DNA from: a virus
Strand: one strand, 5' to 3'
Virus record (IMG/VR): IMGVR_UViG_3300034121_000196
Span: 1 to 21,929 of that record
DNA length: 21,929 nucleotides
Both the position numbers and the translations under genes were made by a program. How positions within the stretch are numbered: position 1 is the stretch's first letter; every line of letters begins with the position of its first letter. Shown here in pieces: positions 1,398 to 21,929 of this stretch. The notes below the pieces were generated by a model that was not told the origin of the DNA, made no database searches, and was given only the letters and a program-made list of their open reading frames with translations.

Positions 1398-2480
1398 ATG
1401 GCCGTCCTCATTAAAAACAACGCCTTCAGCACCCTTGCTTCCGGGATCGATAACTCCGTTACGTCGATTACTGTAGCAGCAGGCACGGGGTCTCTCTTCC
1501 CCGCCGCAGGCGGCGCTGACTACTTCTACGCCACGCTCATCAACACATCAAACCAACTTGAAGTTGTGAAGGTCACATCGCGCTCGACTGATACGCTGAC
1601 CGTGGTTCGTGCGCAGGATGGTACAACCGCCCGCGCATACTCTTCCGGTGCTCGTATCGAGCTTCGTGTTACCGCAGCCCTCCTCACAGATATCCGCGAC
1701 TCGATCACCCCCGCTGACGGCACGGTCACGACGGCCAAGATCGTTAACGACAATGTGACCTACGCCAAGATACAGAACGTCTCTGCTACGTCGCGCATCC
1801 TTGGGCGCAAGTCCGTAGGTGTCGGTGATGTTGAAGAGGCTACGCTCTCCGAAGTCCTAGACTTCATCGGCTCCGCAGCGCAAGGCGACATCCTTTATCG
1901 CGGAGCGTCTGCTTGGGAGCGCCTGCCTGCTGGTACAGCCAATCAGGTTCTGAGGACGGCTGGTGCTGGTGCCAACCCGTCTTGGTCCAACGCTCAGACT
2001 TTGGCTACCTCGCAATCATTAACCGGGTCTACGATTACGTTTTCGAGTATCCCAACCGGTGTTCGGCAGATTGAGGTCACGATTTCTGGGATGAGCCTAT
2101 CTTCCACCAGTGGGTTTAGGCTCCGCTTGGGCACGAGTAGCGGCTTGGCAACCTCTGGGTATAATTCCGTTAGTAAGTGTATCTTTAGCGATAGCGGCGG
2201 CGGCGGTAACATCCAAAGTGCGTATAGTAGTACCGGCTTTATATGCCTGCTATGGGACGATGCCAGTTATTTGGGGAGTGGGACGTTTACTCTTACGAAC
2301 GTGACGGGTAACACGTGGGTCGTTACACATACTCTCGGTGTATATCCTGCTGATATGTCTACAGGAATGACTTCGACTGGTGGCGGCACCGTAGCACTTG
2401 GCGGTACGCTTGACCGCGTTGCTCTTGTTCCCGTGAGCGGCACTTTTGACGCCGGTACTGCCAACATTCTCTATCTGTAA
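1398..2480 (+). CDS. Tail fibre-like protein
   Basis: This 360-residue protein has a three-part layout typical of short phage tail fibres. Residues about 6-100 form a conserved N-terminal attachment-type domain (NNAFSTLASGI, then FPA, YFYATL, LTVVRAQDGTTA, ELRVTAALL). Residues about 105-200 carry fibre-shaft motifs (VTYAKIQNVSATSRILGR, GDVEEATLSEVLDFIG, GDILYRGASAWERLPAGTA, GANPSWSNA) that recur in many phage tail proteins. Residues about 205-360 form a serine/threonine/glycine-rich beta domain, probably the receptor-binding tip. The start follows the previous stop by eight bases, with a GGAG about 11 bases upstream. The tip-coding half (about 2000-2470) looks more A/T-rich than the N-terminal half, as expected for an exchangeable receptor-binding part. 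The host receptor cannot be deduced. Confidence 0.75.
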   Translation: MAVLIKNNAFSTLASGIDNSVTSITVAAGTGSLFPAAGGADYFYATLINTSNQLEVVKVTSRSTDTLTVVRAQDGTTARAYSSGARIELRVTAALLTDIRDSITPADGTVTTAKIVNDNVTYAKIQNVSATSRILGRKSVGVGDVEEATLSEVLDFIGSAAQGDILYRGASAWERLPAGTANQVLRTAGAGANPSWSNAQTLATSQSLTGSTITFSSIPTGVRQIEVTISGMSLSSTSGFRLRLGTSSGLATSGYNSVSKCIFSDSGGGGNIQSAYSSTGFICLLWDDASYLGSGTFTLTNVTGNTWVVTHTLGVYPADMSTGMTSTGGGTVALGGTLDRVALVPVSGTFDAGTANILYL

Positions 2481-2495
2481 CCTAGCGGGGCACGT

Positions 2496-2738
2496 ATGTT
2501 TGATGACCAAGCCTTCAAGGTTCTGAACGCTCTGATGCAGTGGGTCATCATGCCTGTAACTGCGTTTGTCTGGGTGATCTACAGGCAGCAACAGAAACAC
2601 GAGACTGCAATCGCAGTTCTTCAAACGGCGACTGATACATCACGCCAAGCCCACGACCGAGAGATCAAGGAAATCCGCGAGACATCTCGCGCGATCATGG
2701 CGAAACTAGACTCAATCGAGGAGGCACTACGCAAATGA
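2496..2738 (+). CDS. Small membrane protein with coiled coil, lysis-region
   Basis: This 80-residue protein has one hydrophobic segment (residues about 8-29, from VLNALMQWVIMPVTAFVWVIY). A charged heptad-type helix (about 32-80) follows, ending in DSIEEALRK. One N-terminal membrane span plus a coiled coil resembles inner-membrane spanins or XhlA-like holin accessory proteins, though it is shorter than typical Rz and no specific family is recognised. It opens a run of small genes around an endolysin, so a lysis role is plausible. A purine-rich GCGGGG lies about five bases before the ATG. The stop overlaps the next start (ATGA at 2735). Confidence 0.65.
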   Translation: MFDDQAFKVLNALMQWVIMPVTAFVWVIYRQQQKHETAIAVLQTATDTSRQAHDREIKEIRETSRAIMAKLDSIEEALRK

Positions 2739-2899
2739 AGAAGATGATGTCCGAGTACGGCGGCAAGGAAAAGTACAAGTCCAAGGGTGCCATGAAGCGC
2801 CACGAAGGCATGGAAAAGCCCAAGATTGAGCGCATGGAACGGATGCGCGGATACAAGGACGGCGGCATGGTTGTGAAGGTCAAGGGTAAGAACTGCTAA
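2735..2899 (+). CDS. 54-residue basic protein with YKDGGMV motif
   Basis: The ATG at 2735 overlaps the previous stop (ATGA), and the TAA at 2897-2899 overlaps the ATG of the endopeptidase gene (TAATG), so this short frame fills the gap exactly. The product starts MKKMMSEYGGKEKYKSKGAM, is rich in lysine, methionine and glycine, and ends in YKDGGMVVKVKGKNC. No membrane segment is present. Similar short Lys/Gly-rich proteins ending in a DGGMV-type tail occur beside lysis or tail genes in other podovirus-like phages (from memory). The function is unknown. The DGGMV motif recurs in the internal virion protein encoded at 6634-7470, which suggests the product may be virion-associated. Confidence 0.65.
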   Translation: MKKMMSEYGGKEKYKSKGAMKRHEGMEKPKIERMERMRGYKDGGMVVKVKGKNC

Positions 2900-3306
2900 T
2901 GCAGTTAACATCCAAGGACGAAGCACATCTCAAGAGGGTCCACCCGGACCTTGCCCGTGTCATTCGCCGCGCTGCGACCATGTGGCCGCACAAGGATCAG
3001 GTGTTCTTCATCACCTGCTCCACTCGCACTTTGGAGGAACAGAAGAAGCTTATCGCTGCTGGCGCTTCGAGGACCCTGCGTTCTAGGCACCTCCCCGGTA
3101 AGACCAACAAGCTCTCTCATGCTGTTGATCTGGCAGTGCGGATGGGTAAGACCGTTAGGTGGGACGAACCGCTTTTCGTTCAGATGTCGAAGACGATCAA
3201 AGCAGCAGCGAAAGCTGAGAAGGTCACCCTTGAGTGGGGCGGTGACTGGAGGACGTTTTCGGATAAGCCCCACTACCAATTGCCGTGGAAGCAGTATCCC
3301 GGTTAA
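2899..3306 (+). CDS. M15-family endolysin (L-Ala-D-Glu / D-Ala endopeptidase type)
   Basis: This 135-residue enzyme of the peptidase M15 (VanY/T5 endolysin-like) family would cut peptide stems of peptidoglycan during lysis. Family motifs are present in order: the CSTRTLEEQKKLIAAG helix (40-55); SRH with zinc ligand His64; HAVDL with ligand Asp77; and EWGGDWRTFSDKPHYQL, where Glu112 or Asp116 is near the catalytic position and His125 is the third ligand. Phage relatives usually read SRHxxGHAVDL. Here six extra residues (68-73, KTNKLS) sit between the glycine and HAVD. The length matches single-domain phage endopeptidases. No signal peptide is present, so a holin would be needed. The start is coupled to the upstream stop (TAATG). 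Confidence 0.9.
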   Translation: MQLTSKDEAHLKRVHPDLARVIRRAATMWPHKDQVFFITCSTRTLEEQKKLIAAGASRTLRSRHLPGKTNKLSHAVDLAVRMGKTVRWDEPLFVQMSKTIKAAAKAEKVTLEWGGDWRTFSDKPHYQLPWKQYPG

Positions 3307-3719: not shown

Positions 3720-6338
3720 ATGGCCGGTATAAAGATCACGAACTTCCTCGGCATTGCACCGAAGCTGTCGCCTGAACTTATTGGCGCGCAGTTTGCGCAG
3801 ATCGCCGTGAACCTGAACCCGTACTCGGGCGACCTGATCCCATATCGCGTGTCCAAGGAAATCGTTAACACCAACCGTGGCGCTGGCGTCAAGACGATCT
3901 ACCCGATGCGCGACCCCAACGACGCTACGGTCAACAAGTGGCTGTCGTGGACCTCGGACGTGGATATCGCTGTCCCGACGACGCTGGATGAAGAAGAGCA
4001 GCGCATCTACTATACTGGAGATGGCGTACCGAAGGTAACGGACTACAGCCTCGCTGTGTCTGGCGCTGGCCCTTACCCCGTTTCGGCTGGTAACTACGAC
4101 CTCGGCCTCCCGCTTCCAACGACCATACCATCTGCATCTGCAACAGCGTTTACCGAGAAGACCACCAGCACCGTTGCTCGTGATGGGGCCGGTATTGCTA
4201 CGGTTGTGACTTCTGCCGCGCACGGCTTGGATGTTGGGTCTCGTGTAAACGTCTCACAGTTGTCCTATCGGACGGCGACGTACGCGCGTGCTGTTACAGG
4301 TGTAGTTACTGTCACTCTAACCTCGCACGGCTATGAGACCGGTGCGCAACTCTTTATGAGTTTTGACGGTACTGGAGCGTCAAACCCTCCGACAGCGGCA
4401 GGGACGTATCCGATCACTGTAGCAACTTCTAGCACGTTTACGTTTACTGACACAGCTAACAACACGACCATCGCGGCTGGCACAAATTGCGAAATCGGTC
4501 TCTATGACTTCAACGTAGTCAATGCCGAAATCGTTACTGTCCCTAACAGCACGACGTTCACGGTCGCTTCTGCTGGTCCTAAGACTTCCACTATCACGGC
4601 GACGACCGGCAAGGTGAACCTCGCTGGCACTGTTCAGAGCCGCAAGTACGTCTACACATGGATCACCCCGTGGGGTGAGGAGTCGATCCCAAGTGAACCG
4701 TCTGATGCCGTTTACGTACGCGAAGGCCAGACTGTTACGGTTAGCGGATTGCCGACCGCCAAGCCCAGTGGTAACAACTTCATTCGCGGGTTCCGGCTTT
4801 ACCGCACCGTGGTCAGTGCCTCTCAAGGTACGCAATACTTCCTGCTGAAGACGGTGTACTTCACAAATGCAATGACGTTTGCTGCCCGCGCCGCAAATCT
4901 TGCCACGGTGAAATTCCAGCACCCACATAACCTGATCGTCGGTGACAAGATCAAGATCACAAGTACGGCCTTCGGTGGTACACCCGACACCAGCTTCAAC
5001 GTAACGGACGGCACGGTTGCTTCCGCGCCGGATAAGTACACGATTACGTACACAAGCGCCGGTTCGGACAAGGCGAACACTGCAACCTCCGCAGGTACAC
5101 TCTTCTGGGATGTGACTGAACCCGGCAAGACAACCTATAGGTACTACGAGTCCAGCACCTTTACGGACGACTTCAAGGTCGGTGGTCTGGTCTTCATACT
5201 CGACTCACTCTACGCCGACGCACCGGATGCAAACATGCAGGGCCTCACGATGGCTCACAACAACATCTTGGTCGGTTTCGTGCAGAACGAAGTTTGCTTC
5301 TCAGACCCCGGTCGCCCGTGGTCGTGGCCGTTGCGTTACCGCATTGTGGTGGAGCACAAGATCGTGGCTGTTGCCGCAGTCGGCGGTGCCATCTTTGTCC
5401 TGACGACCGAGTACCCCTATCGCTTGTACGGCGATAACCCTGCTCAGATGACCGCTACCCGGTTCGACATTCCAATGCCATGCACCTCGAAGCGAGGCGT
5501 GGTCAACATGGGCTACGGTGTTCTTTATCCAAGCTATGGTGGCATCGCGCTAATTGGGTCCGACACAGGTGCCGTCCTTGCTACGAAGTCGATCCACGAC
5601 CGGGACACATGGACTGAAGCCTGTGATCCATCGACTATCGTTGCCGAGTTCTATAACAACAAGTACTTCATGTCCCACTCTACGGGATCGATGTTGTTCG
5701 AGCGCGACGATCAGATCGGTGGCGTCATGGTGACAACGCCCATCAAGTTCAACGCTGCATACTACGACGCGCGTTACGACAAGTTCTACTATGTCACTGC
5801 TGACAGCGGTGAGATTTATGAGTGGGACGCGGACGGCCAGCCCTTGCTTGCTACCGAGTGGAAATCCAAGGTGTTCATCAACAAGGAGTACACCAACATC
5901 GGTGCGGCTCGTGTCGTGGCTGACTTCAGTACGGATCAGGACGCGCTCGATGCCATCAATGCTTTCAACGCCGCTGTCGTCGTTCACAACACCGAAATGT
6001 GGAGCCTGTCTGCTGACCTCGGTACGCTCAACGGGCAGCTTAGCTACACTGACCCAGTGACTTCGGCCTATACGATTGTCGATAACTCCATCGGTCTATC
6101 GCTGGTCAACGGGGATGTACGTACGCAGTATTCGCTTGAAGCAATAGGCGCATACTTTGTAAACTTCCGCCTATGGGCCAACAAGGTTATCGTCGCTGAC
6201 GTGGTGATCTCGGACTCGGAAGTCTTCCGGCTTCCCACGGGCTACAAGTCGGACACCTTCGAGGTCGCGGTCAGCGGTTCTGCCCGCATCCGGGCTATTC
6301 ATCTTGCAGATACACCCCAAGGTTTGGTGAACGTATGA
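3720..6338 (+). CDS. Tail nozzle / tubular protein B-like, with inserted beta modules
   Basis: This 872-residue protein begins ITNFLGIAPKLSPEL followed by AQIAVNLNPYSGDLIPYR, the usual opening of podovirus nozzle-like proteins that form the tail tip below the adaptor. After residue 300 there is a fibronectin-like stretch (SRKYVYTWITPWGEESIPSE, then FIRGFRLYRTV). It is followed by a repeat-rich part that could form the nozzle barrel (TMAHNNILVGFVQNEVCFSD, YPYRLYGDNPAQMTATRFDI). Three copies of an 'HG-x4-G' beta module sit at about 151-286 (two copies, one apparently inside the other) and 388-463. The ATG lies five bases after the previous stop, with GAGGG just upstream. The last bases overlap the next gene (ATGA). 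The nozzle role rests on sequence pattern and gene order. Confidence 0.7.
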   Translation: MAGIKITNFLGIAPKLSPELIGAQFAQIAVNLNPYSGDLIPYRVSKEIVNTNRGAGVKTIYPMRDPNDATVNKWLSWTSDVDIAVPTTLDEEEQRIYYTGDGVPKVTDYSLAVSGAGPYPVSAGNYDLGLPLPTTIPSASATAFTEKTTSTVARDGAGIATVVTSAAHGLDVGSRVNVSQLSYRTATYARAVTGVVTVTLTSHGYETGAQLFMSFDGTGASNPPTAAGTYPITVATSSTFTFTDTANNTTIAAGTNCEIGLYDFNVVNAEIVTVPNSTTFTVASAGPKTSTITATTGKVNLAGTVQSRKYVYTWITPWGEESIPSEPSDAVYVREGQTVTVSGLPTAKPSGNNFIRGFRLYRTVVSASQGTQYFLLKTVYFTNAMTFAARAANLATVKFQHPHNLIVGDKIKITSTAFGGTPDTSFNVTDGTVASAPDKYTITYTSAGSDKANTATSAGTLFWDVTEPGKTTYRYYESSTFTDDFKVGGLVFILDSLYADAPDANMQGLTMAHNNILVGFVQNEVCFSDPGRPWSWPLRYRIVVEHKIVAVAAVGGAIFVLTTEYPYRLYGDNPAQMTATRFDIPMPCTSKRGVVNMGYGVLYPSYGGIALIGSDTGAVLATKSIHDRDTWTEACDPSTIVAEFYNNKYFMSHSTGSMLFERDDQIGGVMVTTPIKFNAAYYDARYDKFYYVTADSGEIYEWDADGQPLLATEWKSKVFINKEYTNIGAARVVADFSTDQDALDAINAFNAAVVVHNTEMWSLSADLGTLNGQLSYTDPVTSAYTIVDNSIGLSLVNGDVRTQYSLEAIGAYFVNFRLWANKVIVADVVISDSEVFRLPTGYKSDTFEVAVSGSARIRAIHLADTPQGLVNV

Positions 6339-6622
6339 GTTTTGTTGCTCTACCTCCGGTCCCGATCTCTGGTCTAAGTGAAGCCGAGTTCCAGCTTCTG
6401 GCCGCGCTTACGCAGAATATCTCTGTGCTTACTGGTCAGGTTTCTTCTTCGAGTAAGGCCATTATCCCCGGACAGTTGACCCTTGGATTTGCTCCTGATG
6501 GACAGGCAAGCGGTGCGGCTAGTGACGTGGCGACCCTTACGACAGAATTACAAATCCTAATAAACGATGTACAAGCATTGCGTGATACGTTAAACATTCT
6601 GATTGCGCAGCTTCGGGCTTGA
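6335..6622 (+). CDS. Small helical virion-region protein, unknown function
   Basis: This 95-residue protein is coupled to the nozzle gene by an ATGA overlap. Its N-terminal half has a helix (SEAEFQLLAALTQNISVLTGQ). A small proline/glycine-rich middle (IIPGQLTLGFAPDGQASG) follows, then a C-terminal helix with heptad spacing of leucines and isoleucines (VATLTTELQILINDVQALRD to the end). No cysteines, membrane span or catalytic motif are visible. The shape suggests a small oligomeric virion or chaperone-like protein. I do not recognise the family. Codons such as tta, ata and aat around 6545-6600 are more A/T-rich than in flanking genes. Confidence 0.6.
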   Translation: MSFVALPPVPISGLSEAEFQLLAALTQNISVLTGQVSSSSKAIIPGQLTLGFAPDGQASGAASDVATLTTELQILINDVQALRDTLNILIAQLRA

Positions 6623-8746: not shown

Positions 8747-11017
8747 ATGGCATACGTAGCAGGGCTTTACACCAAGGCCAGTCAGGCTTCCGCTGACGAG
8801 GCAAAGCGGTTCCGCGACTTCCAGACCCAGATCGATGAGATGGGTGCGCGTGAACGCGCAGGTCTGATGCGTCAGCAGCAGGCCGCTATGGATCGTCAGA
8901 TGGCTGGTCTTGTCCAGCCGGGTCAGCTTTATACGCCCGAAACGCTGCCGCGTGTTTCTCCCGCCGGGACTTCAGTTGCGACCTCGCCGCTTCCGGCGAT
9001 GATGCCCGAGCAGCAAATCCAGCCTGAACTCGCTGCGCCTGCCGGTGCTGTTCCTGCACCTACCGCTGGACTTACACCGTTCCGCATGTCTCCGGGTCCG
9101 ATTGAGGCTGGCGGTACTATGCCTGCCGCGCCCATCCCCGGTGGCGGTGGGTTTACCCCCGAGCCAGAAGCATCCGTTATTGGTAATGTTGCCGGTGAAT
9201 ACGGTGCGAGGCAGCGGGCCACCATAGAGTACAACCGTCTGCGCGGTTCTCTTATGACCAACGTATTCGGTGATGTTGGTAGCTGGTTTGGTTCACAGGC
9301 TGACTACGACAAACGCCAGCAGATGAAAGCTGCGCAAGCAGAAGCTCTTAATTGGTATGAGTCAACGGCGGTAAAGGACTTTATGCTTGCCAACCCTGTG
9401 GCGCTTACTGAAGCCCAGCAGGACCCGATCCGTTATTTCGTCAGGAACAAGGACAAGCTCGGCAAGAAAGCCGCTGCACCCGCAGCGGCTGCACCCGCTG
9501 AACAGCCCGCACCCGGTGGTACGCAGCCCATCCCCGAACCGACCTCTGTCGGCATTGCTCCGCTCGAAGTGCCCGCTGCCGTACCTGTGAAGGACGAAGC
9601 GTTTGCAGCGCAGTCGGCTGTGAAGCTTGAGAATGAGTTCCTGCCGCGCGTTGCTGAAGTCCCGCAGATGATGACTTCGGATACCGTTCAGCGCCTTGTG
9701 CGCCGCGCAACGGAACTTGGTGTGGACCCTGCTGCCGCTGTCGCCATCTACGGTGTCGAGACAAACTTCGGTCGTCGCGTAGGCGTCAGCGAGAAGGGCG
9801 CTCGTGGTCTGATGCAGGTTATTCCTGCTACGTTCGACGGGATGAAGACGTTCTTCACGGACCCGGCTGAGATCAAGCGGTATAACATCCCGCAGTCCCT
9901 CGTGGATGCTGCGAAGAATATGTCTGCCGACGACGAAAACAGCTTCGATGCCGGTCTCCTGCGTATGAAATATGCAGAGTATAAGGGCGTGGACAAGAAC
10001 CTCCTTGGTGCCGGGTACAACGCTTCTGCTGAGACGATTGCCAAGCTTGGTCGTCCACTGGCAACTGGCTCTGGCATCACGAACGAAGACTACAACAAGG
10101 CGTACATCGCACTCTACAACGAGGCGCGTAACTACGTTGGTCTTGAGCCGAACGTCCAGATGGCAGACTACGAAGCCACGGCACCACTCAGGCTTCAGGA
10201 GATCGATACCAACGAGCAGCTTGAGCTTACGAACTACAACAACGAGATCGGTCTGCTTCAGAAGCAGAACGAACGTATCCTCGCCCAGCGCAACATCATC
10301 GCGCAGCAGATCGCGTTCGCTCAGCAGAGTGGTTTTGCCAACCGCATTCCGGCATTGCAGCAGCAGCTTCTCCAAATCGATGACCTCCTTATGCAGGTGA
10401 CGCAGCAGGCCAACCAGTTGAACGCCGGGTATCAGACCAAGTTCAACGAGTTCAACATGCAGCGCACGACGGAGTTCAGTAACGTTGCTATCGGCAGGAT
10501 GCTCCGTGGTGATCCAAGGTCGCTGTCGGAGCAGTGGTCCCGTGCCTATGGAGAACCTGTCACCATCCAGCGCCGGTCTGACGGCAAATACAATATCTTC
10601 ATGGGCGAGGATGGTCGCCGCATGAGTCCCGCAGCGGGCCTGACCCCGGAAGAGGTCGCGTATATGTTTAAGATGGAGTTCGATGACGCCTTCAGTGCGC
10701 AGGAAGCTGATCAACGGCAGAAAGCCCGTGATGCCGCAGTGCAGCATGACCGGGAGTTGGAGAAGATTTACGTCGAGAACGTCGGAAAGATCGAGGTCGC
10801 CAAGATCAGCAAGTCGCCTGTGCCCGGTTTCAGCAAGCCGGAACCCGTAAGGTACAACGAAGCGGGAGTTGCCATCGAGTTCATTTCCTTCGGTGAGGGT
10901 GCTTACGGTGACCAAATCATCCGCATCAAATCCCCGCCGCAGCAGGAACTTAAGGATGGTATTCTCACCATCGATCAGGCTATAATCACCCGCGAACTCA
11001 GACCGGGACTTCAGTGA
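8747..11017 (+). CDS. Internal virion protein with lytic transglycosylase (SLT) domain
   Basis: This 756-residue protein carries a lytic transglycosylase domain at about 310-465. YGVETNFG supplies the likely catalytic Glu338, GLMQVIP (354-360) is the second motif, and AGYNAS (422-427) is the third. The N-terminal 230 residues are Gln/Ala/Pro-rich, with a second Ala/Pro linker at 240-285. A long coiled coil (about 484-570, LQKQNERILAQRNIIAQQIA) and a charged helical C-terminus follow. This arrangement fits a virion-borne enzyme that opens peptidoglycan during DNA ejection, comparable in role to T7 gp16. A GAGG lies seven bases before the ATG, overlapping the previous stop. The C-terminal stop abuts the giant gene (TGATG). 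The domain call is secure. Virion location is inferred from context. Confidence 0.85.
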   Translation: MAYVAGLYTKASQASADEAKRFRDFQTQIDEMGARERAGLMRQQQAAMDRQMAGLVQPGQLYTPETLPRVSPAGTSVATSPLPAMMPEQQIQPELAAPAGAVPAPTAGLTPFRMSPGPIEAGGTMPAAPIPGGGGFTPEPEASVIGNVAGEYGARQRATIEYNRLRGSLMTNVFGDVGSWFGSQADYDKRQQMKAAQAEALNWYESTAVKDFMLANPVALTEAQQDPIRYFVRNKDKLGKKAAAPAAAAPAEQPAPGGTQPIPEPTSVGIAPLEVPAAVPVKDEAFAAQSAVKLENEFLPRVAEVPQMMTSDTVQRLVRRATELGVDPAAAVAIYGVETNFGRRVGVSEKGARGLMQVIPATFDGMKTFFTDPAEIKRYNIPQSLVDAAKNMSADDENSFDAGLLRMKYAEYKGVDKNLLGAGYNASAETIAKLGRPLATGSGITNEDYNKAYIALYNEARNYVGLEPNVQMADYEATAPLRLQEIDTNEQLELTNYNNEIGLLQKQNERILAQRNIIAQQIAFAQQSGFANRIPALQQQLLQIDDLLMQVTQQANQLNAGYQTKFNEFNMQRTTEFSNVAIGRMLRGDPRSLSEQWSRAYGEPVTIQRRSDGKYNIFMGEDGRRMSPAAGLTPEEVAYMFKMEFDDAFSAQEADQRQKARDAAVQHDRELEKIYVENVGKIEVAKISKSPVPGFSKPEPVRYNEAGVAIEFISFGEGAYGDQIIRIKSPPQQELKDGILTIDQAIITRELRPGLQ

Positions 11018-14000
11018 TGGCTAATCCGCTCGATCCGACCTTCTCCCCGCTCACCTCTGGTCTTGCAGCCCCGCCGCCTTCAATGGCGGAAGATTACGCC
11101 ACACGACTCAGACAGGCGGGTCTGGCACAGCGGCAGGGGTTTGTTCAGGAACCGGAGCTTCCTACCGGCAGGACGGCACGCCTCGCTTACAGTCCTTCGA
11201 CCAAGCAGTTCTTCGTCGGCGGTTATACCTTTGACGATGACAACGACACTGCTGCCGTGGCGCTGTCGAAGTATGCCAACCAAGAGGCTCCGCTTCCTGA
11301 AGGTGACTGGCAGGAGATCGATCCGGCCAGCTACGCACAGTATGTTGAGGGTATCCGCAGTCCCGGTTTCTTCCAGCAGATCGCCAATAACTTCGACATT
11401 GGCCTTGACGAAATGCAGCAGACGCTGGGTTACGGTCTTATGTTCGCTGGTGCGACCGAGACGGGCGCACGCTTGGCAGACCAGAGTGCCGACCTCGCCA
11501 AGACCCAGATTTACCAGCGCAACATCGAGAACATCGGTGAGAATGGCGTCCTTGACTGGGTCGCTGCAACCATTGGTCGTCTCGGCCCCAACATTATTGA
11601 GTCGGTGATCACTGCCGGTATCGGTGCCGGTATCGGCTCTGCGGCCACTCCCGCTGGTACAGCAGGTGGTGCGGTTCTGGGCTTCTTCGGCAAGTCTGCC
11701 GTCAAGAAGGCGCTCTATGAAGCTGCCAAGAAGCACTTCAAGGGTCAGGCATTGGATGCCGCAGAGAAGAAGCTTCTTCTGTCCAGCGCGGGTATGCTGA
11801 ACGCTGCGTCCAACGCAGCCAAGACCAAGCTGGCTCCCGGTGCCTTCAACCAGTTCATGGAGGAAGGTCTTCAGGCTGGTGCCGAAGCCGTAGCGAAGAG
11901 GGTTGCCGCCCGTGCTCCCACGGAGATTGGCGCTGCCGGTCTGTCTCTGGCATCCAACGTCTTCCAACAGACCGGACAGGCTTATGGCGAGACCATGGCT
12001 GACGGTGGCGAAGGTAATCGCGCTGTCGCTCTCGGTGTTGGTGCAATTGGCGGTATCGCGGATACGGCTGGTGAGTTCCTGCTGGCTGGCCGTGTGTTCA
12101 GCGAAGCGATGGGTGACGTTGCCGGGTCCATTACCAAGCGCAAGAAGGCCCTCAACATCCTCAAGCGCGTAGGCGCTGGCGCTGGCGTAGGTGCGGGTAT
12201 GGAAGGCGGAACGGAAGCGTTCCAAGAAGCCCTCCAGCTTGCTGCTAACCCGGTGGTCGATGTTAATACGGCAGAGGGCCAGAGCCGTCTGCTCAACGCC
12301 TTTGCTGGCGGTGCGCTCCTTGGTGGTGGCTTCGGTGGTGCCGGTGGTATCTTTGCTGGTAGCCTCACTGACAACAAGCAGGAAGCCAACCTTCTGCTAC
12401 CGGTGGCGAAGACCGACCCCGGCTACGCCCAGTACCTCCTCGATGTGAAGAAGCAGCTTGGCGAGGCTGAGTACAACAAGGTCTTCGGCCCGCCGCAGCC
12501 TTACACTCGCATCATGGAAGACGAGGCCCGCACGGCTTCCTTCCCCACGCAAGAAGAGTTCCTCGCTGGGCGGGCACGGCTGGGTGTTGTCCCTCCGTCT
12601 GCTGCGCAGCCGCAGGGTGAGTTGTTTGCAAATGCCCCGATGGGCAATGTTCCTGCGCCCGTACCGGCTGGACCGATGCTGCCGGAAGCACCTGCGGTTG
12701 GTCAGGGCGCTTTTCCGTTCACTCCGTCTGCGCGATATCCCGTCCCGGCTGTTCTTGCAAACATCCCCAGCCCAGCGGAGATGGTGGGTCCGATTGTGCC
12801 GTCTGGCACGCAGGCATCTCTTCCATTTGCAGGTGCTGGACAGGCCCCTGCGCCTGTGCCGACTGGTCCTATGCTTCCGCCCAGCACCGACATGGGCGGT
12901 ACGCAGCTTGGTCTGTTCCAGACATATGCCCCTCCTGCGGCGGCTACGCCGCAGGGTGAGTTGCTGCTCCGTGGTGGTGCTGGCCGCGCTCCCGCGCGTG
13001 TTCCTACTGGTCCGATGCCGCAGCCGAGTGCTGACATGGGCGGTGTTCAGGGCGCACTCCAGCCGCAGAAAGAACCGCCTGCACCTCCTCCCCCGACCAA
13101 TGCCATGCAGCCGCAGCTAGAGCGCCTTAAGCGCGGCATGGAGTTCGAGCAGGCCCGCAGGCAGGCTGCGACCCGTGCCACCCCGGCTGAGCGGGTATAC
13201 ACCGAAGCCACCATTGACCAGCCGATCACGCTGGATGTTGATGCAGTCATATCGCCGGATAAGCTGGGGAAGAAACTTACTCCCAACGAGCGCGACCGGC
13301 GCAAAATCCTCGCCGGGTTCAACACTCTGACCCAGCCACAGCAGAACCTCATTCTCGGTACGTTCGGCTACGACGAGGCGCAACTTATTGCTTATGTGCG
13401 CCGCGAAAAGCCCCCGGTGGTAGTCAAGCAGTTCGCCACGCTGGCGCGGGTGAATGAGGACGCCTTCAAGGTCGATATCCCGAAGCCTCTTAAGCGTGGA
13501 GAAAAGAATGCCGCTCAGCCCGGAGCAGGAACAGAAGGTGCAAAGCCTGCTGGAGAGCGGGCGGGCAAAAACAGAGGCGCAGGCGAGGGCGATAATGTAC
13601 GCGCAGGAGCAGAGGCCACCGAAACCCAAGCGCAGCCCGCAGCGGAGCAACCTGCCGCCCGGAGTGAAACCCTACGGGAAGAAGCTGGTGGGGCCGCTGT
13701 AACGGTCGAGTCTACCGAGAGGCGCTTGAAAGGCACTCCGGGTGCGCCCCCCGATTACCTCGTGACCCTATCCGATGGTCGTACGGCGATCATCTACAAG
13801 GACAACGATAGCAAGGACTGGCGTATTGATCACCCCGGCGCTCGTGCTTTCGCACCGTCGCAGGTCGGCTACGCTTCCGATGTACTTGGTGCGACCAAGA
13901 AGGAAGCCCTCGAAAATGTGGTTGATGCACTCGACCGTATGGAAGCTGCTGTCGCCGCATCGAAAGCCGAGAAGGACGAAGTACTAAAGCGTGGCGAAGC

Positions 14001-17000
14001 CGGAAAGCCTGCTCGTAAGTCGGACCTTCAGATGTTCCTTGATACATACAAGGACCCTAAACTGATGGTTGGTATGCGGGGGAACCCGGACCTCAAGGAC
14101 GTTGTGGAGTACGCCGATTGGCTTGGGTCCCTTTCCAAGAAGGACCTTGCCAAGATCGAACTTGTGTTTGTCAAAAGCGACAACCCGTTTCTTGCTGCTG
14201 GTAGTATGGACCCAGTCAGGGTACGGGCAAAACTGGAAGAACAGCTAAGCCCAAAAGTGGAAGGGGCAGCGGTCGCCCCCTCGCAAGAGGCCGCAGAGGA
14301 ACCTAAGCCCGTCCTGACCAAGGCCGAAAAGAAAGCAGCAGAGAAGGCTGCGCGGGAAGCCAAGAAGTACAAGAACCTCCCTGAGAAGGAGCAGATCGCT
14401 CTCGCCAAAGAGGCAGAGCGACAGGGGACAATTATTGCCACGGCTATGGAACTTGAGCAGGACGTTCCGACGCTCAAAGAGATGTTTGCCGAAGTCACCG
14501 ACGTGGAAGCCGACCTCTATGAGGTGTACGGCACCATTGGTAATATCATCCTTGCTCAGCGCGAGAACCAGAAGAAAGGCACATCCGTAAAGGACGCTGC
14601 CAAACAGTCGTTCATCGAGAGTGTCGGTACGCTCTACAACTGGGCCACCAAGCCGGGTTTGTCGCAGGAAGCCAAGAACACTGCTGCTGCCTTCTTGGAT
14701 GTGCAGATTTCCGCCAGCGAGACTGTGCCGCTGAAGGAAGGCGTGAAGCAGGCAATCAAAGACGCTGAGCAGGGTATGTTCAGCCTCTCCCAGTTCGACG
14801 CTGTAACTAATCCAGTGGATGAGAACGGTCGCCCTGCCAAGGGTGTGAACCCGATCCGGGCCAAGGCTATCGTGGACAAGTTCCGCAGTGGTCTCGCCAA
14901 GGCTCCGAAGTTCTTCGTCTACAAGAACCAAGCTGATCTCCAGCGCCGCAACCCTGACCTCTACCAACGCGCAGTGGCAGCGCGTCCGCAGGGAGATTTC
15001 GATACTGCCATGGCTTCCGGCTACGCCTTCGATGGTACGGTGCTGGTCTTCACCGACCGTATCCCGACCGAAAAGTACATGCGGTTCCTGCTGGCTCACG
15101 AAGCCATCGGTCACTTTGGTATGCGCTCCCTGCTGCCCGCGAAGCAGTTCGATGCGCTCATGGACTACGTCTATGATAATAACCCCAGTGTGCGTCAGTC
15201 GGTTGATGGTGCCCTGAAGGGTAGCAAGGACCTCGGTGCCCGCCGCGAGGCGGTCGAAGAGCACATGGCAAAGTTCGCTGAGAAGCTGGACAGCAGCATT
15301 CTCAGGCGCGTGTGGTCTGCCATCAAGGACGTGCTGAACAAGCTCGGCGTTAAGTTCGAGGACGACATCGTCCGTTATCTCGTGTCTCAGGCCCGCAGCA
15401 CCGTGCGCAATGGTTCGTCCATGTTCACGCCCAGCACCTTCGCGCTCAACCTCCAGACCGTGATGACCAACAACGGCACTGGTCGCTTCAGCATCGACCC
15501 GGCCTACTCTGCACAACATACGTTGCGCAATCAACTGGACCTCATGGCTACGCCGCCCGCCAGCATCGAGGAGACGGGCAATACTCTCAGGGACCTCAAG
15601 ATCGATGGTCTCGATATGTTCGAGAACTTCATGCGCAACACCTTCCGTTTGCGCAACTTCAATGCCTTGCGTAACCATGGGGCACAGATCGCTGAGCATC
15701 TCAAGGACGCCATGCGCACGAATGCGCAGTCCCTGTACAATATGTACAACGAGCGTCTTGCGAAGCTATTGGCGCTGACGGGCGACTCCCGCAGGGTTGT
15801 TTCCTATGCCATGGTGATCAGCCGCCGTATCGCCAGCCCCCGGTTCAAGCTGGACAAGGAACTCCGCAACAAGGCGCTACTGGTTCTTGGCGACGAACGT
15901 CTGGATGGTTCCGGGCGTGATACGAAGGTTGATGAGGATGTACTCAAGAAGCTCCTCGACCTCGGTACGCTGTCCAAGAAGGAACTCGAAGACGGCGCGG
16001 AAATAACCTACGAGGAAGCCATCGAAGGCGGAAAGACCAAGAAGGTCACCGTCAAGGTCAAGGGTCTACAGGAAGAACTCGGTCGTGGTCTGACGGACGA
16101 AGAGTACGACATCTATGTTCAGACCCGCAAAGACCTTGCTGATCTCGACATCGAACGCCTGAAGGCGCAGTTCGACAACTTTTTCCTTGCTGAGAAGGTA
16201 TCCACCAAGGGTATCAACAAGGTCCTTGCCGACAAGGAGATGACAGCCGACGACGGCAAGTTCGTCAGGGACATCGTGAACCACGCCAAGAAGCTCTTCG
16301 TGGATGACATGGAGTACGACGAGCGCGGTATGCCGGATGTCACGACCAAGACGGCTATGCGCATGGAGCAGTTCTTCAAGGCGGTCAACACAGCCATCGT
16401 GAAGAAGGAGTTCACCGACGACCTCAAGAAGGACGTGCGGGAGTTCTATTTCCCGAAGCCGACGAAGAAGCTGACGAAGGAAGAGGAACAGGCTAGGGCC
16501 GAAGCCTTGGCAAAGGGTAACGAAAAGTCCGAAGCCGCCATCAAAAAGATCGAGGACTTCCGCAGCCGCCGCACAGAGTTCAGCGGTCTTGAAGAGCAGA
16601 GTGTAATTTATACTGTGCAAGACAGGGTCAAGGAGATCGTCCTTGCCGACGCCGCTTTCGAGCGGGCGCAGATGTTTGTGCGCAGGTCCATCGCTTCGTC
16701 GCACGTCCCACTGTGGCGCGAGGGTAAGTTCCAAGTCCGTGTTGAAGCGCAGATCAACGGCAGGACGGTCCAGCTTCACCCTGACGTGCAGAACAAAATG
16801 ATCTACAGCTTGGCTCCGAATTTATCGGAGGCTGAAGGTGCAGCGGCGTTCTACAACGACAAGATGAAAGATATTGAGTACAGCGGTCTCGTCAGGGACG
16901 ATGCGACCGGCGAGTACAAGACGCAGACTTTCAAGGTATTTGCCCGCGCATCCAAGACCGTGGATACCGTGTCGTCCGATCCGTCCATCGACATCGACAA

Positions 17001-19203
17001 CTTCCTCTACGTGTCGCGCGTTCTTGGTATTCCTCTGGCCCCGGACAAGCACGCCAAGGCGATCACCATGCTGACGGCTCCGGGCAGTGCGCTTCGTAAG
17101 TCGTTGAAGTTCGATGACACCCCCGGCTACGATCCCAGCAGGACGGTCGAGGCTGTTGCACGCCATGTAACCACACGCTCTTCGCTCATCGTGAAGACGC
17201 GCTTCCAGCCGCTGCTCCGTGATCTCATGGATCAATCCTCCGAGACGGGCCAGAAGTGGTTTGGTGACAAGGAAGCTGTCATCACCGCCAAGGAGCGCCT
17301 CGACGCCGCGACTGACCAGAAGCAGAAGGACTACTGGCAGGACAGGCTCAACAAAGAACTCTATATGTACGTCACCACTAACCCCGGAGCCAAGGGGTGG
17401 GATGGTAGCCGCTCGACGTTCAACAACCAGCCGACCAAGGCCAGCCTTGGTATGCGTTACTACAGCGATACCAGCGCAGAGTTCGACGCCATCAACGATG
17501 CACCTAACATCTCGGAGTCCACGTTCGAGGGTAAGCGGTTCGCTGCGCTGGCAAAGATGGTCACCAGCATCGGCTTCCTTGGCGGTATGTTCACGCAGTT
17601 CGCGCAGAACCTGATGTCGCCCGCTACGAACGTGCTGCCGTATCTCGCATCCAAGGACAGCCAAACGGGCTTCGGCGGCGGCTTCGGTGTGGCGGTCATT
17701 CCTGCATACCTCAAGGCGTTCAAGGACACAGTAGCCATCAGCAGCCTCAAAACGCTCACCAACCCCCTTGAAGATGCCAAGGCATTCGAGAAGATTGCCA
17801 ATGAGATCAAGGCCGCGCGCGATGCTGGTGACACTGCCAAGGAAGCTCAGCTTGTCCAGCAGTACAGCCTTAGCTACTACGAAGCTCTGAACATCGCCCG
17901 CGAAATCCGCGAAGGTAAGCTCATCCCGGCACAGGCAAACTCCCTGCTGGAGACTGCCCGTGGTATGTTTATGAGTGGATCAGGAAAGCTGGACAAATTC
18001 GGTAAGGGCTTCCTCAAGTTCTCCGACGTGTACATGATCCCGTTCAATATCTCGGAGCAGGCCACCCGCCGCGCCACCTTCCTCACTGCATTCAGGCTGG
18101 AGTTCAACCGTCTGAAGGAAGCCGGGTTCAACGAGGACAAGGCCAGTGAGATGGCCCGCCTCTTCGCCGTAGACACGGTGGATAAGACGCTGGGTGAATA
18201 CTCCAATACCAACCGCCCGCCCATATGGCGCGATGGCGTCATGTCGCTCCTGTTCGTCTACAAGACCTACCCGCTGACATCTCTCCTGCTGTTCAAGAAT
18301 ATGTCCCGCGCAGGCAAGCTCGGTATGTTGACCTCGCTCTACGTGCTGGCTGGTGCTGCTGGCTTCCCGCTGGTGGACGACATCGAAGACCTTATCGATA
18401 CGCTCTCGCAGCGGTTCGGCCTCGACATTGGTCAGGGTCCTGCCGTGCGCATGGCGATTGTCCGTCAGCTTGAAGAGTTCTTCCCCGGCTGGTCTGACCT
18501 GATCCTGCGCGGCCCGATGAACCACTACACGGGTGCGGACGTTGGTGCGAAGTTCGGTCTGGAGGACTTCCTCCCCGGCACGGGTATCTTCCTCAAGGGT
18601 GCCAACACCACGGAAGAACTCAAGAGCATCGCTGGACCTGTGATCGGTATGGGTCTGAGCATGGGCAACTTCCTGTATGACTTCGGTCGCGCTCCGCTTT
18701 CGGCCACTGTCAGCGCGGTAGACGTAGCCCGCGAAGCTCCGATCTCGCTTGTCCGTGCCATCGGTGACAGCGTAGCCTACATGCAGAACGGTGCCGTCGT
18801 GGATCGCCGGGGCTACATCGTCTCGCCGGAAGTCAGTGCGTTCACGGTGATGTCTCGCATCCTTGGCTTCTACCCTGCTGACGCAGCGCGGCAGTACGAC
18901 TTCATCAAGTATGCTAACCGCATGAACTACGACTACAAGGAAGTCGGGGTCGCTTACCGCATGGCTTGGGTCAAGGCTATGATGACAGGTGACAGGTCAC
19001 AGGCTGCACGCATCGTGCGCGAGGTCAACGACTGGAACGAGGCCAACCAAGGTGGACCGGGGGTCATCCGTAACTTCCTGCGCAACGCCCAGAAGGCGCT
19101 TCAGGAAGCCCGCCGTCCTGCTGGTGAGAGGTTCCTCAAGTCTGCGCCAGTCGCATCCCGCGCCAGCTACGACCGCTTCATGGGGTATATCGCACCAGAG
19201 TGA
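11017..19203 (+). CDS. Giant (2728-residue) large polyvalent / ejection-type protein
   Basis: It is much the longest gene in the window. The N-terminal 450 residues are Gly/Ala-rich with hydrophobic helices (about 189-230 and 309-450, SLASNVFQQTGQAYGETMAD, TEAFQEALQ, GGGFGGAGG), a common opening of phage large polyvalent proteins. Residues 529-690 are a Pro/Ala/Gln linker with three repeats. Residues 829-895 are low complexity. A Lys/Glu helix lies around 1100-1160. About 1253-1470 is a zincin-like domain with HEAIGH (1361-1366) and a Glu-rich helix (1411-1415). About 1898 reads PLWREGKFQV, a pattern of polyvalent-protein-associated domains. The last 600 residues include hydrophobic helices (2180-2210, 2436-2450). 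It probably travels with the DNA into the host, but this is inference. The ATG at 11017 (TGATG) is preferred to the GTG at 11014. Confidence 0.75.
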   Translation: MANPLDPTFSPLTSGLAAPPPSMAEDYATRLRQAGLAQRQGFVQEPELPTGRTARLAYSPSTKQFFVGGYTFDDDNDTAAVALSKYANQEAPLPEGDWQEIDPASYAQYVEGIRSPGFFQQIANNFDIGLDEMQQTLGYGLMFAGATETGARLADQSADLAKTQIYQRNIENIGENGVLDWVAATIGRLGPNIIESVITAGIGAGIGSAATPAGTAGGAVLGFFGKSAVKKALYEAAKKHFKGQALDAAEKKLLLSSAGMLNAASNAAKTKLAPGAFNQFMEEGLQAGAEAVAKRVAARAPTEIGAAGLSLASNVFQQTGQAYGETMADGGEGNRAVALGVGAIGGIADTAGEFLLAGRVFSEAMGDVAGSITKRKKALNILKRVGAGAGVGAGMEGGTEAFQEALQLAANPVVDVNTAEGQSRLLNAFAGGALLGGGFGGAGGIFAGSLTDNKQEANLLLPVAKTDPGYAQYLLDVKKQLGEAEYNKVFGPPQPYTRIMEDEARTASFPTQEEFLAGRARLGVVPPSAAQPQGELFANAPMGNVPAPVPAGPMLPEAPAVGQGAFPFTPSARYPVPAVLANIPSPAEMVGPIVPSGTQASLPFAGAGQAPAPVPTGPMLPPSTDMGGTQLGLFQTYAPPAAATPQGELLLRGGAGRAPARVPTGPMPQPSADMGGVQGALQPQKEPPAPPPPTNAMQPQLERLKRGMEFEQARRQAATRATPAERVYTEATIDQPITLDVDAVISPDKLGKKLTPNERDRRKILAGFNTLTQPQQNLILGTFGYDEAQLIAYVRREKPPVVVKQFATLARVNEDAFKVDIPKPLKRGEKNAAQPGAGTEGAKPAGERAGKNRGAGEGDNVRAGAEATETQAQPAAEQPAARSETLREEAGGAAVTVESTERRLKGTPGAPPDYLVTLSDGRTAIIYKDNDSKDWRIDHPGARAFAPSQVGYASDVLGATKKEALENVVDALDRMEAAVAASKAEKDEVLKRGEAGKPARKSDLQMFLDTYKDPKLMVGMRGNPDLKDVVEYADWLGSLSKKDLAKIELVFVKSDNPFLAAGSMDPVRVRAKLEEQLSPKVEGAAVAPSQEAAEEPKPVLTKAEKKAAEKAAREAKKYKNLPEKEQIALAKEAERQGTIIATAMELEQDVPTLKEMFAEVTDVEADLYEVYGTIGNIILAQRENQKKGTSVKDAAKQSFIESVGTLYNWATKPGLSQEAKNTAAAFLDVQISASETVPLKEGVKQAIKDAEQGMFSLSQFDAVTNPVDENGRPAKGVNPIRAKAIVDKFRSGLAKAPKFFVYKNQADLQRRNPDLYQRAVAARPQGDFDTAMASGYAFDGTVLVFTDRIPTEKYMRFLLAHEAIGHFGMRSLLPAKQFDALMDYVYDNNPSVRQSVDGALKGSKDLGARREAVEEHMAKFAEKLDSSILRRVWSAIKDVLNKLGVKFEDDIVRYLVSQARSTVRNGSSMFTPSTFALNLQTVMTNNGTGRFSIDPAYSAQHTLRNQLDLMATPPASIEETGNTLRDLKIDGLDMFENFMRNTFRLRNFNALRNHGAQIAEHLKDAMRTNAQSLYNMYNERLAKLLALTGDSRRVVSYAMVISRRIASPRFKLDKELRNKALLVLGDERLDGSGRDTKVDEDVLKKLLDLGTLSKKELEDGAEITYEEAIEGGKTKKVTVKVKGLQEELGRGLTDEEYDIYVQTRKDLADLDIERLKAQFDNFFLAEKVSTKGINKVLADKEMTADDGKFVRDIVNHAKKLFVDDMEYDERGMPDVTTKTAMRMEQFFKAVNTAIVKKEFTDDLKKDVREFYFPKPTKKLTKEEEQARAEALAKGNEKSEAAIKKIEDFRSRRTEFSGLEEQSVIYTVQDRVKEIVLADAAFERAQMFVRRSIASSHVPLWREGKFQVRVEAQINGRTVQLHPDVQNKMIYSLAPNLSEAEGAAAFYNDKMKDIEYSGLVRDDATGEYKTQTFKVFARASKTVDTVSSDPSIDIDNFLYVSRVLGIPLAPDKHAKAITMLTAPGSALRKSLKFDDTPGYDPSRTVEAVARHVTTRSSLIVKTRFQPLLRDLMDQSSETGQKWFGDKEAVITAKERLDAATDQKQKDYWQDRLNKELYMYVTTNPGAKGWDGSRSTFNNQPTKASLGMRYYSDTSAEFDAINDAPNISESTFEGKRFAALAKMVTSIGFLGGMFTQFAQNLMSPATNVLPYLASKDSQTGFGGGFGVAVIPAYLKAFKDTVAISSLKTLTNPLEDAKAFEKIANEIKAARDAGDTAKEAQLVQQYSLSYYEALNIAREIREGKLIPAQANSLLETARGMFMSGSGKLDKFGKGFLKFSDVYMIPFNISEQATRRATFLTAFRLEFNRLKEAGFNEDKASEMARLFAVDTVDKTLGEYSNTNRPPIWRDGVMSLLFVYKTYPLTSLLLFKNMSRAGKLGMLTSLYVLAGAAGFPLVDDIEDLIDTLSQRFGLDIGQGPAVRMAIVRQLEEFFPGWSDLILRGPMNHYTGADVGAKFGLEDFLPGTGIFLKGANTTEELKSIAGPVIGMGLSMGNFLYDFGRAPLSATVSAVDVAREAPISLVRAIGDSVAYMQNGAVVDRRGYIVSPEVSAFTVMSRILGFYPADAARQYDFIKYANRMNYDYKEVGVAYRMAWVKAMMTGDRSQAARIVREVNDWNEANQGGPGVIRNFLRNAQKALQEARRPAGERFLKSAPVASRASYDRFMGYIAPE
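12652..13059 (+). repeat. Three diverged Pro-rich repeats in the giant-protein linker
   Basis: Three units of about 23 residues share the pattern PA-x-VP-x-GPM-x-P followed by an M/V-G-(G)-x-Q-x-x-L/F end. They lie at residues 546-568, 611-634 and 659-681 of the giant protein (nt 12652-12720, 12847-12918, 12991-13059). The bases have diverged more than the residues, so the repeats are old or held by selection on the protein. Confidence 0.65.
13508..13702 (+). CDS. Embedded out-of-frame small ORF inside the giant gene (putative)
   Basis: A 64-codon frame lies in a different frame within the giant gene. It starts at an ATG preceded by GGAG (13498-13501) with a six-base spacer and ends in TAA. 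The product begins MPLSPEQEQKVQSLLESGRA, continues with a helix-like KTEAQARAIMYAQEQ, and ends in a basic, proline-rich tail (PPKPKRSPQRSN, then GVKPYGKKLVGPL). It looks like a globular or nucleic-acid-binding protein rather than a random frame. The giant protein's own frame here is low complexity (Ala/Gly/Glu/Gln) and uses codons (gga, gca, gta, cta, aga) that are unlike its surroundings. I recognise no family. It may be an expressed nested gene or the remains of an inserted gene. An in-frame ATG at 13454 exists but lacks this ribosome binding site. Confidence 0.4.
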   Translation: MPLSPEQEQKVQSLLESGRAKTEAQARAIMYAQEQRPPKPKRSPQRSNLPPGVKPYGKKLVGPL

Positions 19204-19746: not shown

Positions 19747-21929
19747 CTATACAACGACCTGAAGCTGGTTCAGGGTCATGTTATCAACGGTATTGTCAGC
19801 GTCATCGAGAATGCTGCGCAACCTGTCGTGGTTAAGGTTGAGGCCAAGAACGTATATCTGACCGGGCTTGGTGGGACAGTCCTTACCGATTGAAAACTTC
19901 TCCGATTTAGGTGTGGCATTTATGCCACTCAAAGTGAAGGTCTTGACGATGGCGTTGTAATCACCGTGGTTCGTGTTGACCCACTGCTTAAAATGTTTCC
20001 TGTCTATCATCATCGTACCACTGGTGAACGGCTCACTCGCCGCCTTGCGATACGCATCGATGCGCACCCGGATACCGTTACGAGGGATGCGGCTCTGGTC
20101 TGTCAACGCCCTTGGGTTACCAAGTGTGTGCATGACGGTGACCGTCTCGCTGGAAGCATCGTTGAGATATGCAGCCAGCATATCAAAGGCGTCCATCTGG
20201 TTGGACTTAACCGTGTCGCGCAGCAGGCCAATCTGACTGAGGATAGCACGTGTGCATTTCTCATAGTCGTACTGGATCAGGTTAAGTTTGCTGGCAAGCT
20301 CGTTGCCCAGATCAGCGTTTACGATGCCCTGCTCCCAGAAGCGTTCCTGACCGGAGAACCTCACATCGTACTTCTGGAAAAACCGGATGCGGTGATCTTC
20401 GATCATCGCCCTGCAACCATCCTCGCCAAGCTCCACGAGATGTTTGAGTATCACTTCACCGGCCAAACCGTGGTTGTTACTGAGTGTGTCGAATATCTTT
20501 TTGCCAGCGTTAGAACTGTCGCTGAACATCGGTACAGCGTGCATGTTGATCTCCAGCAGTCGGGCAAGCTGCGCGTCCGTATCCATACCAGAGGACATCA
20601 TCTTGGAACCCAGTGACCTGTTGGATGAGGTCACGCATGGTAGGCCCCACGTCTTGGCTTCCCTCTCCTCGGCGTTCTTGTTAAGGCGGGCCTTGTCCTT
20701 GCCTTGAGTAACCCAATAGCAAAAGTCACCGACCTCCTTGTCGGGCATCATGGTCGCTTCATCGATAGTAATGGGTAGGTTGTTATAGAACCCGAAGCGG
20801 GAGAACACGGCGTTCTGTGTGTACTTTGCTGCGAAGTGCAGCTTGTCTGGGATACCGTAGATCGACTGCATCCAAAGCTGAGCGATGGACTTGCCCGATC
20901 CTGTCGGGCCGCAGAGGCTGATCACCACGCCACGAAGTCCACTGAACTGGTACAGTGGTGCAGAGAACGCCACGCCAAGGGCGAAGCCGTGAACGGGTAG
21001 ATTGCCACGCTCGATGACGGAGGTAAGCAGGGACCAGTCGCGGAGGCTACCCTTTACATCGAACAACTTCTCGCCAAGCTTCTGAGATGTGGCGGCGAGG
21101 TTGATGTTCTCAACCACTGCGGAGCCACTGTCGTCGCGCTTGATGATCCGGTCACCGATCAGGAACTGGGTATTGTTCTCCTTCCACCCCATGGTGGAGT
21201 AGAGATTTGTCACCGCCTTGATCTTGCGGAGTTCGTCCATGTATGAGCGTAGCATTGTTTGAAAACTCAGCGTTTGGTTCTTGCTGGCAAGAACGATCCC
21301 TTGGTCTGCGATAGCTGTTGCGAACTCCCGGTTCTCTGCGGCGAGGAAAGCCTGTCGGAAGCGAAGTTCCTTCCACCCTGAGTGCGGGCGGTTCCAGTGG
21401 TAGCGCACCACCTCGTAGCCCAGTGTCTCGTCGTAGCCATAACCTACTGGATATAGGTCGAACTTGCACACGTCGATATCCGTGCCGTCCGTGACTTGCT
21501 TGATGCCGTCTGCCGTGCGCTTGAACGGCTTGGGGATTTGGACTTGGAACGCTACCTGATCCGGTGCGGTCTGCTCGATGGTGACCTCTTCCCGCTGCAA
21601 GCCCAGCCGTGCTGGTGATCCGATGCGCCCGTTGAAGCGGCACGACTTGCAGATATCCGGGCGCTCACTGTCGAACTTGGCGCAGGTAGTAGGACCAGTG
21701 GCGGCGTTCTTCCAGTGATCTACCTTGCGGATGGTCTCGTCTTCGCTGAAAGTGGGATGGTCCTTCGACCACGCGATAGCTGTATCCTCTGGGGCTTCGC
21801 AGAAGGCAGCGATGCCGATCACCCCATACCACATGGGTTCACTGACATCCTTCTGGTTGTTAACTGCCCAGTTAACCTGAGCGCACTTGGAGACGATCAC
21901 ATCCGGTTTGGCTGGAGGGTAGTCTTGTC
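19747..21929 (-). CDS. Primase/helicase-type AAA+ ATPase, DUF927-like (N-terminus outside window)
   Basis: The frame is open to the right edge, past the GTG at 21898-21900, with PPAKPDVIVSKCAQVNWAV running through it, so the true start lies outside. Numbering from that GTG, residues 60-100 have a cysteine cluster (GPTTCAKF, then ICKSCRFNGRIGSP) seen in phage primases ahead of the helicase. GPTGSGKS (331-338, nt 20887-20910) is Walker A, ITIDE (377-381) is Walker B, TSSN (424-427) fits sensor 1, and Arg447 in DAQLARLLE fits an arginine finger. The pattern from Walker A through KDKARLNKNAEE matches DUF927-type helicases. It probably unwinds DNA at the phage fork and may carry a primase domain upstream. 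It is transcribed opposite to the virion operon. Confidence 0.8.
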   Translation of the reverse strand, partial: QDYPPAKPDVIVSKCAQVNWAVNNQKDVSEPMWYGVIGIAAFCEAPEDTAIAWSKDHPTFSEDETIRKVDHWKNAATGPTTCAKFDSERPDICKSCRFNGRIGSPARLGLQREEVTIEQTAPDQVAFQVQIPKPFKRTADGIKQVTDGTDIDVCKFDLYPVGYGYDETLGYEVVRYHWNRPHSGWKELRFRQAFLAAENREFATAIADQGIVLASKNQTLSFQTMLRSYMDELRKIKAVTNLYSTMGWKENNTQFLIGDRIIKRDDSGSAVVENINLAATSQKLGEKLFDVKGSLRDWSLLTSVIERGNLPVHGFALGVAFSAPLYQFSGLRGVVISLCGPTGSGKSIAQLWMQSIYGIPDKLHFAAKYTQNAVFSRFGFYNNLPITIDEATMMPDKEVGDFCYWVTQGKDKARLNKNAEEREAKTWGLPCVTSSNRSLGSKMMSSGMDTDAQLARLLEINMHAVPMFSDSSNAGKKIFDTLSNNHGLAGEVILKHLVELGEDGCRAMIEDHRIRFFQKYDVRFSGQERFWEQGIVNADLGNELASKLNLIQYDYEKCTRAILSQIGLLRDTVKSNQMDAFDMLAAYLNDASSETVTVMHTLGNPRALTDQSRIPRNGIRVRIDAYRKAASEPFTSGTMMIDRKHFKQWVNTNHGDYNAIVKTFTLSGINATPKSEKFSIGKDCPTKPGQIYVLGLNLNHDRLRSILDDADNTVDNMTLNQLQVVV

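Follow-up and report, generated by a model that had tools for sequence, protein, structure and literature searches.

The Rz1 gene of phage lambda, located inside Rz, is a same-strand nested phage gene. Genes E and K of phiX174 are likewise nested on the same strand, and overprinting has been reviewed (PMC8227390). The S gene of hepatitis B virus (HBV), which lies within the polymerase gene, serves as a model in which a short gene is situated between two coding modules and a longer frame later runs through it (PMC8227390). In phage Fc02, olg1 and olg2 are same-strand overlapping ORFs in alternate frames for which internal initiation has been proposed; they are genes of the immunity region tied to superinfection exclusion (PMC9936078).

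The present analysis concerns a 21,929-nt virus sequence from IMG/VR (hereafter, the window). Sequence comparison argues strongly that its positions 13508–13702 hold a genuine protein-coding gene that lies within the mosaic linker of a giant gene, on its strand and in its +1 frame. Similar to Rz1 and to phiX174 E and K, it is a short gene inside another, on the same strand, in another frame and with a putative start of its own. Unlike them, it sits in a giant, mosaic container of the virion type, the constrained frame is the nested one and not the container, and no homology links it to these genes. The product also differs from those of these lysis genes in having no lipoprotein signal or membrane segment. 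A nested lysis gene of the Rz1 type was rejected, as the product has neither a lipobox cysteine nor a membrane segment; no cysteine and no hydrophobic segment were present in the aligned homologue sequences, and no signal segment was found. The olg1 and olg2 genes of Fc02 share the same-strand, alternate-frame layout with the nested gene, with no known sequence link. Nested same-strand phage genes are already known, and the one described here is new, homology to the known ones not having been found. Its less common features are that the container frame is passive, that the gene coincides with recombination junctions and that it sits in a giant gene of the virion type.

Nested frame, its putative start signals and its surroundings

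The earlier note on this DNA had described a 64-codon out-of-frame ORF with GGAG six bases before its ATG, and its coordinates, spacer and frame were confirmed. The frame runs on the plus strand from the ATG at 13508 to the TAA at 13702 and translates to MPLSPEQEQKVQSLLESGRAKTEAQARAIMYAQEQRPPKPKRSPQRSNLPPGVKPYGKKLVGPL*. It is displaced by one base in the 3' direction relative to the giant ORF and overlies amino acids 832–896 of the giant protein (Table 1). Counted from the ATG at 13454, the same open frame comprises 82 amino acids; conservation starts only at 13508, and the upstream extension, which is not conserved between lineages, is probably not part of the nested gene.

The window contains 98 listed ORFs of at least 60 amino acids, and upon synonymous recoding of the giant frame, the +1 frame stayed open in 76–90% of trials. 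The length and openness of the 64-codon frame alone are not significant and not unusual in the window; it is conservation that decides whether the frame is coding. The strength of the Shine-Dalgarno (SD) site against background is only moderate, as 16% of the out-of-frame starts were as strong in duplex energy in the window and 50% in the relative L021. No promoter-like site, tRNA or Rfam element was found at the locus. The product is basic, with a pI of 10.0–10.7 among the homologues. Structure prediction showed a single N-terminal helix at residues 5–34 followed by an unstructured tail (pLDDT 75, pTM 0.32). This proline-rich tail, which is basic and conserved, ends in LPPGVKPYGKKLVGPL.

Table 1. 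Coordinates of the nested gene, its container and neighboring features in the window.
Feature	Position	Strand	Remarks
Nested gene	13508..13702	+	64 codons plus TAA; +1 in giant gene; basic product
GGAG Shine-Dalgarno-like site	13498..13501	+	6-nt spacer to ATG 13508
Open upstream extension of nested frame, from ATG 13454	13454..13507	+	Differs between lineages
Giant gene (container)	11014..19203	+	2729 aa, GTG start at 11014
Giant-gene cassette right after nested stop (aa ~897–970)	13703..13925	+	Shared with L021/L028
Virion structural proteins	68–721 and 721–1389		PHROG matches
Tail fibre	1398–2480		PHROG match
Spanin-like, Rz-like	2496–2738		PHROG match, E = 0.0009
Endolysin	2899–3306		PHROG match
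Internal virion protein	3720–6338		PHROG match
Transglycosylase SLT domain gene	8747–11017		
Primase/helicase-like gene	19747–21900	opposite	

The surroundings of the giant gene are those of a tailed-phage late region. The giant protein is composed of a conserved N-domain (approximately aa 1–509), a mosaic middle and a conserved C-domain beginning at approximately aa 1277. Its C-terminus is related, with 24–27% identity, to giant proteins of F116 (p60), vB_PalP_Y7 and other phages, some of which are annotated as DarB-like or PLxRFG; the likeness to such proteins lies in the C-terminus of the container. No trace of the nested gene was found in F116, Y7, Y11 and Mel-JY34, nor was the N-domain of the window found there.

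Two further observations were made on the late region. A 95-aa ORF at 6335–6622, which follows the internal virion protein gene, had no PHROG match and showed strong computed anti-SD pairing. Long open frames were also noted on the minus strand at 9362–10915 (517 codons) and 14245–15699 (484 codons), opposite the transglycosylase and giant genes, respectively, and these two are probably a by-product of codon bias.

Homologues and selection on the two frames

Relatives were sought in IMG/VR by a scan with the product, which gave L001 and L002–L006, by the giant C-domain, which gave L012, and by an alignment search, which gave L021. L002–L006 represent one lineage with identical loci where compared, and the comparison comprises five independent sequences only: the window (W), L001, L002, L012 and L021. 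The nested product is encoded by the four other lineages with identities of 77, 75, 52 and 48%; in the scan itself, L001 matched with 77% identity and L002–L006 with 45% over the best segment. Every copy is nested in the +1 frame inside the same giant gene and is free of internal stops, one copy per contig, and the nested gene was present in every giant gene found via the N-domain of the window. L013, obtained with the C-domain, is a fragment and starts downstream of the nested-gene site. In the five-sequence alignment, the motifs QARAI and LPPGV are invariant and the end KKLxxPL is conserved. The start codon occupies the same column in all five lineages, being ATG in four and GTG in L012, and each start is preceded by an SD-like site. 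This site reads GGAG in three lineages (the window, L001 and L012); L002 has AGGAGG, spaced 6 nt from the start, and L021 has a weak AGGA.

No free-standing copy was found in IMG/VR, phage records, bacterial genomes or plasmids. In tblastn, neither the 50,697 phage records searched nor the plasmids gave a meaningful match to the product, and neither the product nor the giant N-domain had a confirmed match when scanned against bacterial genomes. Sequence profiles of PHROG, Pfam and PDB showed no significant match; the product scored 13.7 bits against RRXRR (PF14239), which is below the Pfam gathering cut-off of 25 (E = 0.056). No structural match to the predicted fold was obtained. Gene callers generally skip genes lying wholly inside another, and family libraries could lack such genes. 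The outcomes that the earlier note named as refuting its reading, a nested frame broken by stops in homologues or the absence of both homologues and constraint, were not observed; the nested frame was intact with its start codon in all five lineages.

Depending on the lineage, the nested frame is already open for 15–141 nt before the conserved start, and +1 shifts can be stimulated by SD-like sites, as would suit entry from the giant frame by a +1 ribosomal frameshift, with a truncated giant protein carrying this tail as the product. However, conservation begins exactly at the start codon kept in all five lineages, and the residues upstream of it in the nested frame are unrelated between lineages. 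Moreover, no slip site or slow codon common to the five lineages was seen, and in L012 the frame opens just 15 nt before the start. A frameshift origin is considered very unlikely and was rejected on the conserved starts.

The distribution of differences over codon positions was compared between the two frames. At nested positions 1/2/3, the differences numbered 2/1/9 for L001–L012, 10/11/23 for W–L001 and 29/22/38 for W–L021; L002–L021 alone among the pairs showed nearly no bias (21/21/23). Parsimony counts across the five sequences were 47/40/66. In the N-domain of the giant gene, W and L022 differ at giant positions by 9/9/49, the third position being dominant as elsewhere in that gene. Over the nested gene, most differences are at giant position 1 (nested position 3), a pattern opposite to that in the remainder of the giant gene. 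In sliding windows, a clear reversal was observed only over the nested gene (823–886, W–L022, 23/10/14; 820–889, L022–L023, 13/3/3). Such a codon-position reversal is a simple test applicable to other giant phage genes.

Across all ten pairs, dN/dS was 0.05–0.61 in the nested frame and 0.99–4.24 in the giant frame, and amino acid identity was higher in the nested than in the giant frame in every pair. When the same substitutions were placed at random, 8.1 nested amino acid changes were expected between L001 and L012, as against the 2 seen (P = 0.00005), and 27.1 between W and L001, as against 15 (0 of 20000 trials); the changes in the giant frame over the nested segment were as expected from random placement. 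These patterns indicate that the nested protein is under purifying selection and that the giant frame over it is unconstrained beyond staying open, which bears out the earlier note where it looked to constraint in the two frames. The locus represents a case in which selection acts on the hidden gene and the container frame is a passive one, and it suggests the linkers of giant phage proteins as places to seek further hidden genes. The nested gene itself is recognisable only through DNA comparison.

A highly improbable alternative is that the open frame arose by chance and that conservation of the segment is at the DNA level only, for instance as a recombination site, or reflects a need of the giant protein. 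The mosaic linker does recombine at its edges, and open +1 frames are common in the GC-rich giant gene. DNA-level conservation, however, would not produce the pattern seen, in which the differences have a period of three in the nested frame and tend to leave its amino acids unchanged (P ≤ 0.00005), and the giant frame is without constraint beyond openness. It is hardly credible that the bias is caused by an antisense gene whose codons are in register with those of the giant frame and whose wobble base would be that of the nested frame. An antisense ORF at 13117..13650 lies in that register, and the frame is also low in dN/dS; it nevertheless has stops within the segment in four of the five lineages, whereas the nested frame has none. 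The nested and giant frames are the only two of the six that are stop-free in all five lineages, and both the antisense frame and the third frame were rejected on this ground.

Proposed expression and function of the nested gene

In the proposed mechanism, the mRNA of the giant gene would offer ribosomes an independent initiation site, made up of the internal SD and its ATG (in one lineage, GTG). A separate basic protein of 64–78 aa would be made alongside the giant protein, and the giant frame across the same bases would be tolerated as a linker. The product, as modelled, would most likely work by binding a partner. A role as an accessory factor of the giant protein or of virion assembly/ejection is put forward tentatively, because the product and the giant protein are always encoded together, within the late structural region. 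Our second guess, only slightly less likely, is a peptide for host takeover or anti-defence.

Mosaic linker, codon usage and relative age of the two frames

Comparison with L012, L022–L024 and L028 showed that the middle of the giant gene (window 12541–14850, aa ~510–1270) is a patchwork of exchangeable modules between strongly conserved ends, with different modules held in common by different pairs of phages. In this region, L001 and L012 share only the nested gene, the common DNA covering bases 602–791 of the block (gene, 601–795) at 95% identity; their sequences meet again about 340 bases past the end of the nested gene in L001. In the window, the nested gene and the part upstream resemble L001, and the cassette beyond the stop resembles L021. 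L001, L012 and L002 lack this cassette; on the sequence comparison, it marks the nested gene's 3' end as a recombination junction. The restriction of L001–L012 sharing to the gene, together with the switch in the window from L001-like to L021-like sequence, indicates that the ends of the gene coincide with exchange junctions.

The earlier note had also remarked that the giant-frame codons over this segment are unlike those of their neighbors and that the nested frame looks gene-like, and this held on measurement. The CAI-like value of the segment was 0.526 in the giant frame, below every 65-codon window of the genes of the window, and 0.608 in the nested frame, at the 96th percentile of +1-frame windows. 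In four of the five lineages, the giant-frame segment was lower than every comparable gene window, and in L021 it lay at the 1.3rd percentile. Across lineages, the nested frame ranged from the 90th to the 100th percentile of +1-frame windows. RSCU correlation over the segment was −0.09 for the giant frame, 0.31 for the nested frame and 0.33 for the unused third frame. As the third frame equals the nested one in this measure, RSCU does not settle which frame is older.

That the gene behaves like a precisely bounded DNA cassette when L001 is compared with L012, and that the giant-frame codon usage over it is foreign to the giant gene, would also be expected of a small gene inserted recently into the linker, now non-functional and merely read through. 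Such a dead insert is extremely unlikely, as selection persists in all pairs drawn from the window, L001 and L012, and the start is kept and stops are absent in all lineages. The reading of the earlier note is supported, expression being proposed on sequence grounds. Its two options, a nested expressed gene or the insertion of a small gene into a tolerant linker, are not exclusive; they merge into a gene that is nested, still selected and possibly of greater age than the frame that crosses it.

It is conceivable that the small gene is the older and constrained one and that the giant frame grew or fused through it. If so, about 65 unselected residues of the giant protein would be a mere read-through of a needed gene, and the small gene would stay fixed while the flanking modules are swapped among phages. 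By analogy, the engulfment of a small gene by a growing frame, as modelled for HBV S, is possible. That model fits the odd codon usage of the giant frame, although the virus and its proteins are unrelated and, at the present locus, ancestry is judged only from codon usage and the absence of constraint. Among the relatives examined, no outgroup separating the nested and giant frames was found.

Downstream of the linker, L024, of the lineage of L002, and L028, of the lineage of L021, carry an insertion in the giant protein after window aa ~1424 that is absent from the window, and this insertion holds a mid-protein stretch resembling a twin-arginine signal, MSRRGFLKGAGSVIGAVAVP.
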